A stretch of 64,000 bases of DNA. Origin: Aureliella helgolandensis. GTDB lineage: Bacteria; Planctomycetota; Planctomycetia; Pirellulales; Pirellulaceae. The stretch is taken from assembly GCF_007752135.1 (NCBI RefSeq), contig NZ_CP036298.1, positions 6,324,859 through 6,388,858 on the forward strand, read 5' to 3'. Positions 4,237 to 10,833 of this stretch are shown here, one piece after another. The notes under the pieces were generated by a model. That model was not told the origin of the DNA. It searched no databases and saw nothing but the letters and a program-made list of their open reading frames with translations. Each line of letters opens with the position of its first letter. The stretch's first letter is position 1. Both the position numbers and the translations under genes were made by a program.

Positions 4237-7200
4237 TCAATTCGATGGGTACTCATTCCGGGGATTTTCGTCCAGTTTCGAACTGGAGTCGGCTGCACCG
4301 CGTTGCGAGAATTCTAAGACAAACTGGCGCGGATTCTTGAGTAGCGAAGGGGACGCTGCAATCAACATCAACTCGCTTTGCGTTGGTTCCCTTGCCACGC
4401 CGCCGGTCAGCTCATCTCGCATGCTGCCAGCGGCTTGGTAGAGCGCCGCTCGCGCAGTCGCTGGAGGATCGTCGATGCAAGAACGCTCCAACAAGGCTTC
4501 GAGATCGCCCGTCAACTTGCGATGTTCGTCACTCGGCTCCTCGTGCTCCAGTTTTCGATACATCCCCAACAAACCCGACGCCGTGATTAGATAGTTGGTG
4601 GCGAATTGCTCAATCACGCGATTCGAGTAGCAATCCAGGCAGCCCGCCGTGTCACCGCAAAATTGGCAATCAGCATAGTACTGCATCAAGGATTCGGGCG
4701 TCGCGAACGCTGCATTTCCTTCAGCAGTAGCCGATTCTTTAGGATGCGAAGACGACTGGCTTGGCTGATTGGAATTCGCCGCCCCTTGTTCACTGCTCAC
4801 GGAAGTCGCAGATGCCTTCAGCAGCTTGCCAATGGTGTCGTCAACATCATGAGTGTCATAGCCACCTTCGCCGTAGAAGGGCATGTGTAGCTCTGGCTGC
4901 AAAATCCCCTCGGTGTCGACGATGTAGACCCTCGGATAGTTTTCGATCCCCCAGTCTTGCGAAAGCGGAGGATTCAACAGAGGCTGCCGGATCACCGTGA
5001 AGTTCAGGTCACCTCGCTGCGAAGCAGCACGAAGACTTGCTCGGTCATCCGTGTTGATAATTCCAACAAATTTCACGGGAGCCCAGCTATACTTGGCGAC
5101 CAATTGCCGTAAAGGGGCGTACATTTCTTGATAGTTGGCCATGGTGCTTTGCAGAAACAGTAACACGACAATCTTGCCTCGATATCTGCTCAACTGAAAT
5201 GGTTGCCCGTCGACATTCGAGGTAATAATCTCTGGAGCCGTTTCACCAATCCTGACTTGGTTGATCGCATGAGAGAGTCGACGAGCTGCATTACCGCCGG
5301 TGCCATAGCTACTGACACGAACGTTAGAATAGTCGTTCTCCAACCGCTCTAGCTTGGAATTCAGGTCCGCGCGAAGCTGCGCAAAGTCCGTGTTTTCCAG
5401 TTTCTCGAGCATGTATCGTTGCTCAAGCTTTACCTGCAGTGAATCGTCGTTGCCCCCGTTGAGTTTCAGACGCTGTTCGTGAAGGAATGTTGGTAGCAGC
5501 GATTCTACAGCTAGCAGTTGCTTGCCCTGCAGTAGCTGGACCACGAGGACCTCCGCCTGTGTATCACGGTAGGGACTTTTTTCAACTAGCTGTTGTAGGA
5601 AGCCTGCGGTTTGAGATTGAAAAGGACCGTTGCCAAATAAGGGAACGATCCTTTCTAGTCCACGTTGGTTGATGTAGTGATCCAGGATTCGTTCACTAGC
5701 TTCTACGCGCGCTTGGGCCGATTGGGACGCGGGGTCTCCAACACTGCCCGCCATCCTGGCAACCTCCATCAATGCTTCGAACCCTGCGTCGGATTCGGGG
5801 TATCTCTCTTCAAAGGCCAAGTACTTCGTAGGCATAATCTCGCGAGGGTCCAATTCCTTGATCACTCGATTCAATTCGACTTCATCAGACGCTTCGCTCC
5901 TTGCCTTTTCATATTTTGCAGCCAGTTTGCTGTATTCGATCTGCAGTTCTCTCAGTTCACTGAAAGCTGGATTATCTAAGTTCGGCGCGAGGGAGCTATC
6001 GAATGGCGAAGCAAGTTCAGGTTGTTCCAACGCCGCAGTTCTACCAGCCCGAGAGAGACTCAGCTCGAGGGATCCCGCTAGCGCTGGCACTCCGAGTTCA
6101 AATAGTTGCTCACACAGCTTGGTCAGGGATTCGTTGAGACGCTTCAAGCGAGCCACTGATTCGGCGACATCATTTTCATTTGGTTCTACTCCTGCAGTCA
6201 AGTGGCGGTGTTCGGCTTCGGCCATACCGCGTTCCTCGAGAAGCAAGCGATGAGACAGCACAAGATCTTGGATTGCCTTTTCGTCTGCTGCGGACCTCGG
6301 CTGAGCGAACTTTTTTCGGTAGGTGTCAGCGATTGCTCGAACCATCAAGTCGCGGCTCGATCTGGTGGTCACGTCACCATATAAACCAATTTCAATTTGC
6401 GAATCTCCAATGGACTTGACCAGAAAATACTTCTTTAGGTTTCGGAGCGTCTCGGCGTTCGGAGACGATGGAAAGGGCAGCTCCTTCGGCCATTCGACGC
6501 TCGCAAGAAATCCCTCGCTTTGGACCAGCCTGACGTGCGTGTGAAGAACCTCACTTTCCGCCCATCCATTGCTAGGGCTGGTAGCAACGGTCACAATCTC
6601 GGATACATAGGTGGAAGGTTCCTCAGTCTCCTTCAAGCGAGTCAATAGCATTGGTATTCCTGTAGGCATGCCTTCCAAATCACATTTTTGGAACTCAAGA
6701 TGATTGGCGTCGCGCAATTCGTATCGAAATTGGAGTTCCACCAGCTCCTCGTCGGCTGAGGGTGCCGCGTACGTGATGAGACGCATCCGCTGGTTGGGTA
6801 AAAGCTGATAGACATAGTGCTCCGTGGACTCAGGCTCATTCAGACTGGTAATCTTCCATTTCTCAAATGTCACAACGATATTTTCGCCAAAGTGCATCCG
6901 CGATTCATCCCGTTCCAAATTCGTAACCCGCCATGAGCCAGATAGTTGCTCGCTAATATCGGACGCAACGAACGATGGTGTTTTCGTTCGCCGAATCCGG
7001 ATCGTTTGGTTTTCCCCATGCGCAAGCGTTACGGTGTTTTTTTCGATTTCGATTTCCGGAAACTCTCCATCCAGCTCGACTACATACTCCCCAGCGGCAA
7101 TGCGAGTCGAACTCCCCTGCTTAGATACCTGCAACGATTCGACCAGTTCGTCATTCCGCAAGATCCGGACTGCGATTTCATCGATCTCGGATTCTATTGT

Positions 7201-8478
7201 GAGCGTACCCTTGTTGAACTCCAGAACAATTAGCACTCCCGAAAAAAATAATGCGAGCGCCAAGGCTCCAGCAGCGACCAGTTTTGCGAGGGGAGGGCGT
7301 GCAATTTTTTGTGGCGCGATGTCCACCGAGATTGATTCAGGCAGCGGCACCGTGGTGGGTTGCTGCAAGTGGCTGAGGCAGCCTTCCAGTAGCTGAGCGA
7401 TCTCTTGTGCGCTCTCGAAACGATCGGCCGGCGTTTTGGCCAACAACCTCATCACGACATTATCTAGCCACCAAGGTATCTCGGGCTGAATCGTTTGCAG
7501 GCGGCGTGGTTCGTCGTTGCCAATTCGATTCAATACCCCCATGGTCGTCTCGGCTCGAAACGGAGAGTGCCCCGTGAGCATGAAGTACATCACGCTTCCC
7601 AATGAAAACAGATCACTGCGGTGATCGATCTCATCGCCATGCGCCTGCTCGGGTGACATGTACTGTGGTGTACCAGAAATCATCCCGCTGCATGTCATGC
7701 TGGCATCATCGACAGCCCGGGCCAAACCAAAATCGGTAATCTGGACACGTTCCACTCCATTTTCAAGCAATATATTGGCCGGTTTGATATCTCGGTGGAC
7801 CAACCCCTGTTGGTGTGCCGCTGCCAGCCCCTCGGCAATCTGCAATGCGATCCGTACCGATTCGATCGTGGAAAGGGGACCGTCCGACTCGACTCTTTGT
7901 TGTAGGCTTTTGCCTTCCACGACCGGCATCACTAGGTACGGAAAACCCTCGTGGTCATCGACTGTTTGGATGGGGACAACGTGTGGGTGCACTACAGCTG
8001 CCGCACTTTTAGCCTCCCGCGAGAATCGTCTGCGTGCTGCGGCACTGGAGGCCAGTTCGGGGGCCAGCACCTTCACCGCACAGTAGCGTTCCAGCGCTGG
8101 ATCGTAACCCCGCATCACAATCCCCATCCCGCCACGGCCAAGAATTTCCATAATCTCGTAGCGGGCAAAACGGCCAAGGGACTGAGGATGTTCCGACGCT
8201 TGCAGAAAGGGCGGTAGGGTGGTCCCCATCCCTGCGGGAGCTGAATTCGGGATCGCATTGGTCGAGGCAGCTAGTGGCGACAGATCATCTTGCTGCATCA
8301 TACCAGCCACTTCATTCCAACTCATCCCGCCACTGGACAGCGTCTCCAACTTGGTTTGGCAGGCTGCACACGATTCAACGTGTGCAAGCATGTCACTTGC
8401 TGTCTCCCGGGGATTGTCACGAAGTAGTTGCAGCAGTGATTGGTCGTCGTAGTGAAATCTTGCGATCATCGTAAGCAC
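4237..8478 (-). CDS. Large membrane Ser/Thr protein kinase with TIGR03067-like and thioredoxin-like domains
   Basis: 1413 residues. N-terminal short zinc-finger-like motif (H33, C37, C40, as in anti-sigma HC2 domains); Hanks-type kinase about 107-370 with Gly-loop LGRGGMG, Lys136, HRD (Asp230), DFG (Asp249) and GTPQYMSPEQ; one membrane segment about 399-420; a PEGA-like beta region about 425-500; a TIGR03067-like domain about 510-620 (LSGSWRVTNLERDESR); a long helical region; a thioredoxin/TlpA-like domain about 1075-1219 (GETAPEI, RGKIVVLLFLQST, NYPRVYIVDTEG); and a C-terminal four-cysteine cluster (C1271, C1274, C1280, C1283). The thioredoxin-like domain has QSTMANYQ where CXXC is expected, so it is not a classical disulfide catalyst. 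GTG at 8478 follows the sigma-factor stop directly; an ATG at 8469 behind AGGTG is the alternative start. Kinase inside and sensory domains outside is inferred. Confidence 0.9.
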   Translation of the reverse strand: MLTMIARFHYDDQSLLQLLRDNPRETASDMLAHVESCAACQTKLETLSSGGMSWNEVAGMMQQDDLSPLAASTNAIPNSAPAGMGTTLPPFLQASEHPQSLGRFARYEIMEILGRGGMGIVMRGYDPALERYCAVKVLAPELASSAAARRRFSREAKSAAAVVHPHVVPIQTVDDHEGFPYLVMPVVEGKSLQQRVESDGPLSTIESVRIALQIAEGLAAAHQQGLVHRDIKPANILLENGVERVQITDFGLARAVDDASMTCSGMISGTPQYMSPEQAHGDEIDHRSDLFSLGSVMYFMLTGHSPFRAETTMGVLNRIGNDEPRRLQTIQPEIPWWLDNVVMRLLAKTPADRFESAQEIAQLLEGCLSHLQQPTTVPLPESISVDIAPQKIARPPLAKLVAAGALALALFFSGVLIVLEFNKGTLTIESEIDEIAVRILRNDELVESLQVSKQGSSTRIAAGEYVVELDGEFPEIEIEKNTVTLAHGENQTIRIRRTKTPSFVASDISEQLSGSWRVTNLERDESRMHFGENIVVTFEKWKITSLNEPESTEHYVYQLLPNQRMRLITYAAPSADEELVELQFRYELRDANHLEFQKCDLEGMPTGIPMLLTRLKETEEPSTYVSEIVTVATSPSNGWAESEVLHTHVRLVQSEGFLASVEWPKELPFPSSPNAETLRNLKKYFLVKSIGDSQIEIGLYGDVTTRSSRDLMVRAIADTYRKKFAQPRSAADEKAIQDLVLSHRLLLEERGMAEAEHRHLTAGVEPNENDVAESVARLKRLNESLTKLCEQLFELGVPALAGSLELSLSRAGRTAALEQPELASPFDSSLAPNLDNPAFSELRELQIEYSKLAAKYEKARSEASDEVELNRVIKELDPREIMPTKYLAFEERYPESDAGFEALMEVARMAGSVGDPASQSAQARVEASERILDHYINQRGLERIVPLFGNGPFQSQTAGFLQQLVEKSPYRDTQAEVLVVQLLQGKQLLAVESLLPTFLHEQRLKLNGGNDDSLQVKLEQRYMLEKLENTDFAQLRADLNSKLERLENDYSNVRVSSYGTGGNAARRLSHAINQVRIGETAPEIITSNVDGQPFQLSRYRGKIVVLLFLQSTMANYQEMYAPLRQLVAKYSWAPVKFVGIINTDDRASLRAASQRGDLNFTVIRQPLLNPPLSQDWGIENYPRVYIVDTEGILQPELHMPFYGEGGYDTHDVDDTIGKLLKASATSVSSEQGAANSNQPSQSSSHPKESATAEGNAAFATPESLMQYYADCQFCGDTAGCLDCYSNRVIEQFATNYLITASGLLGMYRKLEHEEPSDEHRKLTGDLEALLERSCIDDPPATARAALYQAAGSMRDELTGGVAREPTQSELMLIAASPSLLKNPRQFVLEFSQRGAADSSSKLDENPRNEYPSN

Positions 8479-9405: not shown

Positions 9406-10833
9406 CTATGCCTCCCCGGGTTTGTATTCGCTTCTTGGCTTTTGCATCAGCTTGTATTTCTTCGGTCTTCGCTTGAGCACCCTGGGCTCGTAGCGGTCCG
9501 GTCGATTGCCAACTGCGTGTTGCAAGCAGCAGCGGTACAACACAGTGCATAATTCATCGGCGTTGCTGATTAGGCCTAGAACCGGAAGCATATCCGTCAC
9601 CGTTGTCAGTGTTGACTTGAAACTGATATGCCAAGGTTGAACGTCGCCTTCGACGGCCGCTTCAGACATCACCCCGCGAATCAAATTGTAAGCCAACATG
9701 TGCGTCCGAATTTCGTTCCGCACTCGATGCGGCTTTTTACAGCGCAAGTGTTCCATCTGCATGACCGTTTTCAAGCTCCGTAAATGAAGTTCTGCTTGCC
9801 ACCTTCTACGGAACAGGGCCGCGATGTCCTCCCTCGTGTACTCCGTATCGTCCGACAGCGATGTGTGAACGATAATCTCGCGAGTGCGAAATCCGTTGTT
9901 CTCAACTCGGATACGGATCTCGCGAATGGTGATGAAGTCCGGGTACGTCTCGTACTCTTCAATGCTCATCCAGTCGGGACGAGCTGGCTTGTCGATTTGG
10001 ATGGAGTGATCGTCTTTGCCGTAACGAATTCCAGTCCGAAAATCTGACTTGCGCAACTGGTGTTTGCGAACAACGACGTGTGCACCACGTTGAATCATCC
10101 TCGCCATCTCGAACCAACCCGCATAGGCGCGATCAGCTAGGAAAACATCGGTTTCTTCGATGATTGCGTCGATCTGACGAAACAAACTTACTTCGTGAGT
10201 GAACTTACCTTTGTATCGGCCCATCGCCATGTCGAGCACAACGCCAGTCGACAACGCGAACAGTACAACGACTCGCAAGATCGGAAATCCACAACCGGGT
10301 GCTTGACTACTAAGTTGCGGGTAGGCGGCTTGATTCTCCGACGTGTCTGCCATCGTGACGGTGGCACCATCGGCGGTGATCACGCGGTGCCCCAGCCATC
10401 GCCAATGGTCGGGACTGCTGTCTTCAATCGCAAGTCCGCTGGCCGTCACAAGACGTTGCATGGATTGCTCGTCGATTTTGTCTCGAGCAATGCAGTAAGC
10501 ACCGGTTTCGGCAGAGCAAGCAGTTTGGTTGTTGGCGACTCGATGGGTGATCAGCTTGGCGACCGCAGAGACGCAGCCGTGGTGGATGCTCATGACTTGC
10601 GAGAGGAAGACCCACAGCGTGACCGATGTGTTGTAAACTCTGGCCGAATCGAGAATGGCACTTGCATTGCCAAAGACTGACGCGATAGTCTCTTTGGAGA
10701 TCAAGGCGGCGAAGTAAAGATCGCCGTGTTGGCGCGCATGTTGGACTCGACAGCGGAACGAATCAAACGGATGATGGCACACGGGGGCTTCCTTGCTTGG
10801 TGTGTTCGGGAGGGTAAGATTACCCAAACTCAT
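9406..10833 (-). CDS. IS4-family DDE transposase
   Basis: 475 residues, the only gene of the element. The DDE triad can be placed: first Asp in VTMADTSENQAAYPQ, second in DVFLADRAYAGW, and the signature glutamate in RRRWQAELHLRSLK, which fits the IS4-type Y-(2)-R-(3)-E-(6)-K pattern with Phe in place of Tyr. An N-terminal IS4 domain (SIHHGCVSAVAKLITHRV region) is present. ATG at 10833. The gene is full length with no frameshift, so the enzyme could be active. Confidence 0.9.
   Translation of the reverse strand: MSLGNLTLPNTPSKEAPVCHHPFDSFRCRVQHARQHGDLYFAALISKETIASVFGNASAILDSARVYNTSVTLWVFLSQVMSIHHGCVSAVAKLITHRVANNQTACSAETGAYCIARDKIDEQSMQRLVTASGLAIEDSSPDHWRWLGHRVITADGATVTMADTSENQAAYPQLSSQAPGCGFPILRVVVLFALSTGVVLDMAMGRYKGKFTHEVSLFRQIDAIIEETDVFLADRAYAGWFEMARMIQRGAHVVVRKHQLRKSDFRTGIRYGKDDHSIQIDKPARPDWMSIEEYETYPDFITIREIRIRVENNGFRTREIIVHTSLSDDTEYTREDIAALFRRRWQAELHLRSLKTVMQMEHLRCKKPHRVRNEIRTHMLAYNLIRGVMSEAAVEGDVQPWHISFKSTLTTVTDMLPVLGLISNADELCTVLYRCCLQHAVGNRPDRYEPRVLKRRPKKYKLMQKPRSEYKPGEA

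Follow-up and report, generated by a model that had tools for sequence, protein, structure and literature searches.

A catalytically dead redoxin module in the outer region of an ECF-linked receptor kinase from Aureliella helgolandensis

Introduction

The closest described systems are gene pairs in which an ECF sigma factor gene lies beside a gene for a transmembrane Hanks-type Ser/Thr protein kinase (STPK) with an outer C-terminal region. They include the ECF59, ECF61, ECF62 and ECF217 pairs of Planctomycetes and, in ECF43, EcfP/PknT and EcfK/PknS. ECF43 factors lack the DAED motif and are activated by phosphorylation at that site (PMC8999054, PMC8103513). PknT phosphorylates EcfP (PMC8999054). 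PknS acts on EcfK by direct phosphorylation and is itself held in check by its periplasmic part (PMC13147305).

The window analyzed here, a stretch of 64,000 nucleotides, comes from the 8.44 Mb, single-contig genome of Aureliella helgolandensis and contains a pair of the same kind. Compared to the described pairs, its kinase has an additional HX3CX2C motif at the N-terminus and a pseudo-redoxin in the outer region, and compared to ECF43 its sigma factor retains a DAED-like motif. We found no such kinase in the literature searched, the coverage of which was incomplete. The ECF/STPK type of signaling is itself known; the unusual part is the pseudo-redoxin as its probable sensor.

Results

Organization of the gene pair and the kinase

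The ECF sigma factor gene is located directly upstream of the kinase gene (Table 1) and matches TIGR02937 (E 3e-14) and Sigma70_r2 (E 9e-12) in the NCBIfam and Pfam scans. Its TAG directly precedes the GTG of the kinase gene. Because the TAG abuts this GTG and kinase homologues align from the motif MIARxHYD onward, translation of the kinase probably begins at an ATG located nine bases further on. Just upstream of the ECF gene lies a DDE transposase gene (9406-10833 in the window) in the same orientation.

The 1413-residue protein consists of a zinc-finger-like N-terminus with the HX3CX2C motif, a Hanks kinase domain, one membrane helix and about 990 outer residues, in that order. The catalytic motifs are HRDIKPAN and DFGL, and HRD and DFG are kept in 12 of 12 kinases, i.e. 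this one and 11 homologues from the same genome and five other genomes of the family. In the hydropathy profile only one segment is strongly hydrophobic, at approximately residues 401-419. With the kinase domain taken as cytoplasmic, the C-terminal ~990 residues would be located outside the membrane. Catalytic motifs, synteny with an ECF gene and one helix followed by an outer C-terminal region are among the features that characterize ECF-linked STPK receptor kinases, and these three are found here. The kinase domain and the membrane helix had been proposed in a first-pass annotation of the sequence, and both are borne out.

A juxtamembrane domain starting with KGTLTIES is common to all 12 kinases. 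It appears PEGA-like by eye, and has no match in Pfam. The LxGxW segment that follows it had been called TIGR03067-like in the first-pass annotation. We could not substantiate this identity and rejected it. TIGR03067 is absent from the NCBIfam scan of the kinase at E<=1, and a search of the organism's own genome with the model at E<=10 matched three other places, the kinase gene not among them. An hhalign comparison, weak as it used only two TIGR03067 sequences, was also carried out.

Table 1. Features of the ECF/kinase gene pair, with positions in the window.
Feature	Position	Strand	Basis or remark
ECF sigma factor gene, 200 aa	8479..9081	(-)	Ends directly before the kinase gene
Kinase gene	4237..8478	(-)	1413 aa when counted from GTG; start more likely at the ATG at 8469
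HX3CX2C motif (H33-C40), zf-HC2/ZAS-like N-terminus	8359..8382	(-)	Invariant in the alignment of 12 N-termini
Ser/Thr kinase domain, residues 107-360	7399..8160	(-)	Pfam Pkinase E 5e-45; HRD, DFG
Transmembrane helix, residues 401-419	7222..7278	(-)	Hydropathy peak 2.58, next highest 1.37
Conserved juxtamembrane domain KGTLTIES...	6979..7209	(-)	Alignment of 12 kinases
LxGxW segment, first called TIGR03067-like	6619..6957	(-)	No match with the TIGR03067 model
Helical region and thioredoxin-like domain, residues 837-1224, no cysteine	4807..5970	(-)	Alignment of seven kinase copies; Cys count
Thioredoxin-like (AhpC-TSA) domain, residues 1077-1194	4897..5250	(-)	Pfam E 8e-10, above cut-off; PDB profile and Foldseek matches; column comparison with relatives
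Dead active-site loop QSTMANYQ, residues 1110-1117	5128..5151	(-)	Columns compared with 62 catalytic relatives
C-terminal helical module, residues 1258-1393	4300..4707	(-)	Also found in other ECF-linked kinases; this copy is shorter
C1271-xx-C1274-x5-C1280-xx-C1283	4630..4668	(-)	Four-Cys form only in this kinase

A thioredoxin-like domain that has lost its active site

The outer region contains a thioredoxin-like domain preceded by a helical region. The first-pass annotation had noted a TlpA-like domain with QSTMANYQ in place of CXXC and had left its fold to be checked; both the domain and the fold are upheld by our searches. In addition to the Pfam match, profile searches of the PDB matched the module to ResA and Bcp. 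An AF2 model of the helices and the thioredoxin-like part, built from two sequences, has a mean pLDDT of 59, and in Foldseek it matched Bcp, ResA and other TlpA-like proteins, with a best E of about 1e-7. The assignment of the fold is drawn mainly from the sequence, and the predicted model is of low confidence. Two features go beyond the earlier description, the N-terminal HX3CX2C motif and the helical region, which is homologous together with the thioredoxin-like part.

Seven kinase-borne copies of the region equivalent to residues 837-1224 were found: the one in the window, one more in the same genome, three in genome G138, one in G028 and one in G127, where the locus matches Stieleria tagensis. 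The kinase-borne form is rare, with at least four of 241 family genomes containing it. A phylum-wide search, in which the best few candidates per genome were scored, gave no further kinase-fused copies, and these counts are lower bounds. The copies are 45-57% identical over ~388 residues, except for two copies in G138 that are 91% identical. One member of this pair (L042 and L041) has ~600 extra residues between the membrane and the redoxin, a difference that points to domain shuffling among paralogues.

Sequence comparison indicated that the catalytic apparatus is gone from all copies. QSTMANYQ aligns without gaps with the W(C/U)xxC loop of relatives, and CXXC or UXXC is absent in seven of seven copies. 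Compared to 62 CxxC/UxxC relatives, the kinase copies have lost the active-site W, both Cys/Sec, the active-site Pro and the Asp before Phe. The nucleophile column is occupied by M, N, G or E, and the resolving Cys is replaced by Tyr in six of the seven. The cis-Pro is kept in six copies, together with about 20 scaffold positions. Positions invariant specifically in this clade include P1122, Q1125, Q1165, P1166, D1175, Y1207 and D1208.

The kinase copies group with two other copies that lack CXXC. One is a relic in G214; the other is a kinase-free protein in G199, on a long branch whose placement is unsure. The relic (L075, 4516-7194) corresponds to the thioredoxin-like part of the kinase and lies beside a sulfatase gene, with no intact kinase in the same frame.

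The module could be a mere decaying remnant or a passive spacer. The relic in G214 is in line with this, as is the absence of the module from close kinases (L035, L036 and L038) of the studied kinase's own genome. However, none of the seven copies has frame damage, and many residues are invariant specifically in the clade. In the 91% identical pair, dN/dS is 0.027/0.304 (about 0.09) for the thioredoxin-like part and 0.043/0.305 (0.14) with the helices included. These ratios indicate that the module is under purifying selection in this pair, the one pair testable, and a remnant or spacer is quite improbable. Since it is conserved despite having lost its redox chemistry, the module is probably a binding domain and not a redox sensor. 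A comparable input domain is known from another kinase. The SasA histidine kinase has a non-catalytic thioredoxin-fold input domain for protein contact. The use of the fold would be the same; SasA differs in that its domain is cytoplasmic and KaiB-like and its kinase is a histidine kinase.

Relatives of the module with selenocysteine

Relatives of the module that we found are mostly redoxins distributed across the phylum, with CxxC or, more often, the selenocysteine form UxxC. UxxC redoxins as such are already known (PMC13188914, PMC2398784). In most kinase-free relatives across the phylum, a single in-frame TGA occupies the position of the active-site nucleophile. The TGA redoxins (L012-L034, L061-L111) have the sequence FWGDWUGPCRAMYPHERSLV, and often several are found per genome. 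A clear tRNA-Sec (>=65 bits) is present in 14 of 17 checked genomes with TGA redoxins. Nine other checked genomes, including that of the window, gave only hits below 50 bits; those in G000 and G028, the two of the nine examined, turned out to be tRNA-Ser. The genomes with pseudo-redoxin kinases (G000, G028, G127 and G138) contain no clear tRNA-Sec.

A ACGAGCGGTCGCTC-type hairpin with a GGTC loop is located within 60 bases after the TGA in 47 of 47 distinct TGA genes, which were selected by the motif FWG..W(TGA). It is nearly always the 16-mer ACGAGCGGTCGCTCGT, which occurs 38 times in 18 of the 28 genomes searched and in none of the kinase-bearing genomes. The reversed 16-mer, used as a control, has zero occurrences in the same 28 genomes. 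Neither the Cys homologues nor the kinase copies showed the hairpin (ACGAGC-GGTC-GCTCGT). By these counts, a hairpin that appears SECIS-like is an invariant feature of planctomycete UxxC redoxin genes.

The TlpA/ResA-like and AhpC-TSA redoxins, including the planctomycete UxxC forms, share with the kinase module the thioredoxin scaffold, the cis-Pro and, in longer alignments, the N-terminal helical region. Unlike them, the module has no active-site Cys or Sec and is fused to a kinase instead of being free-standing. The pseudo-redoxin might be a decoy of such secreted redoxins, which would bind the substrates or partners of CxxC/UxxC enzymes and report thiol stress in the envelope without a thiol of its own; we regard this as rather unlikely.

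The C-terminal module and its cysteines

The C-terminal helical module was also found in nine further family genomes, and most of the further kinases identified through it also have an ECF gene upstream. The copy in the window lacks a stretch that follows the cysteines in L037, L044 and L123. An NTF2/SnoaL-like nature was considered, and no convincing match was obtained in Pfam or the PDB. The single-sequence AF2 model of the module has a pLDDT of 43.

The first-pass annotation had pointed out a CxxC-x5-CxxC cluster near the C-terminus, which is indeed found at residues 1271-1283, and had suggested that the outer part could sense a ligand or a redox or metal state. A redox or metal sensor could operate through these four cysteines or through residual thiol chemistry. 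Across the copies of the C-terminal module, the first cysteine (C1271) is nearly always and the fourth (C1283) mostly conserved, and the two may form a structural disulfide. The second (C1274) is unique to this kinase; other copies have R, H, K, N or another residue at this position. The third (C1280) is W or F in several copies. The four cysteines occur together only in this kinase, and such a lack of conservation is what the first-pass annotation had named as refuting its proposal. Since it is chiefly the first and the fourth that are kept in other kinases, the four are unlikely to form a metal or redox site. Residues 837-1224 contain no cysteine at all. Together with the loss of CXXC from all seven copies, this makes a redox or metal sensor very improbable. 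Sensing of a ligand, the other half of the earlier suggestion, or of a protein is the better option.

Pairing with the sigma factor and the zinc-finger-like N-terminus

An ECF homologue is located directly upstream of the kinase gene in all 12 loci first examined. This adjacency supports the suggestion, made in the first-pass annotation, that the kinase signals through the neighboring sigma factor, although the coupling itself is inferred. The DAED position is acidic in all 12 ECF factors, reading DADD in the window and DAED, DAQD, DADD or DAEN in the others. Loss of DAED with a phosphorylatable Ser/Thr instead, as in ECF43, was not found among them. Because the DAED-like motif is kept here, the EcfP mechanism, in which the phosphate supplies the missing charge, is not transferable as such. 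Genes for M56 (BlaR1-family) peptidases are found near the ECF/kinase pairs in L039, L041, L043 and L046, and not near the pair in the window.

The HX3CX2C motif is present in 12 of 12 kinase homologues and provides the only invariant columns of their N-termini. The zf-HC2 family is listed for seven of the 12, with a best E of 4e-5; the match of the kinase in the window (E 0.036) falls under the Pfam cut-off. In ZAS anti-sigma factors such as RsrA, an HX3CX2C motif is located in a short cytoplasmic N-terminal segment. The motif is alike, whereas the version described here is fused to a kinase, and its sigma factor binding and redox role are putative. Its position ahead of the kinase domain in all 12 N-termini raises the possibility of an anti-sigma/kinase fusion.

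The kinase could therefore act mainly as an anti-sigma factor, its N-terminus holding the sigma factor until a conformational change or proteolysis releases it, while the kinase activity serves other targets. The conservation of HX3CX2C and the zf-HC2 matches fit such a role. In addition, the DAED-like motif is kept, so RNA polymerase binding should not need phosphorylation of the sigma factor. However, HRD and DFG are retained in every one of the 12 kinases, and the studied STPK/ECF pairs act through the kinase (PMC8999054, PMC13147305). We consider this a serious alternative, if an unlikely one.

Discussion

We favor, with moderate confidence, a role of the pseudo-redoxin as the sensor of a transmembrane unit formed by the ECF factor and the receptor kinase, in which it binds a partner or ligand and thereby controls the kinase and the adjacent sigma factor. 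A TlpA/AhpC-like protein would have been captured by the kinase together with its N-terminal helical region, and would then have lost its catalytic residues but not its scaffold. The pseudo-redoxin would bind an envelope protein or a ligand, and binding would alter dimerization or autophosphorylation of the kinase. The kinase would in turn control the adjacent sigma factor, with phosphorylation either of the sigma factor or of the kinase's own zinc-finger-like N-terminus, a segment that may keep the sigma factor at the membrane.

Little has been described of the sensor domains in planctomycete ECF-linked kinases. The present kinase suggests an origin for one of them, in which a redox enzyme turned into an outer domain of a receptor kinase, without catalytic function, and has since been retained and copied. 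The findings favor a search for binding partners over a test of thiols, and define residues to mutate.
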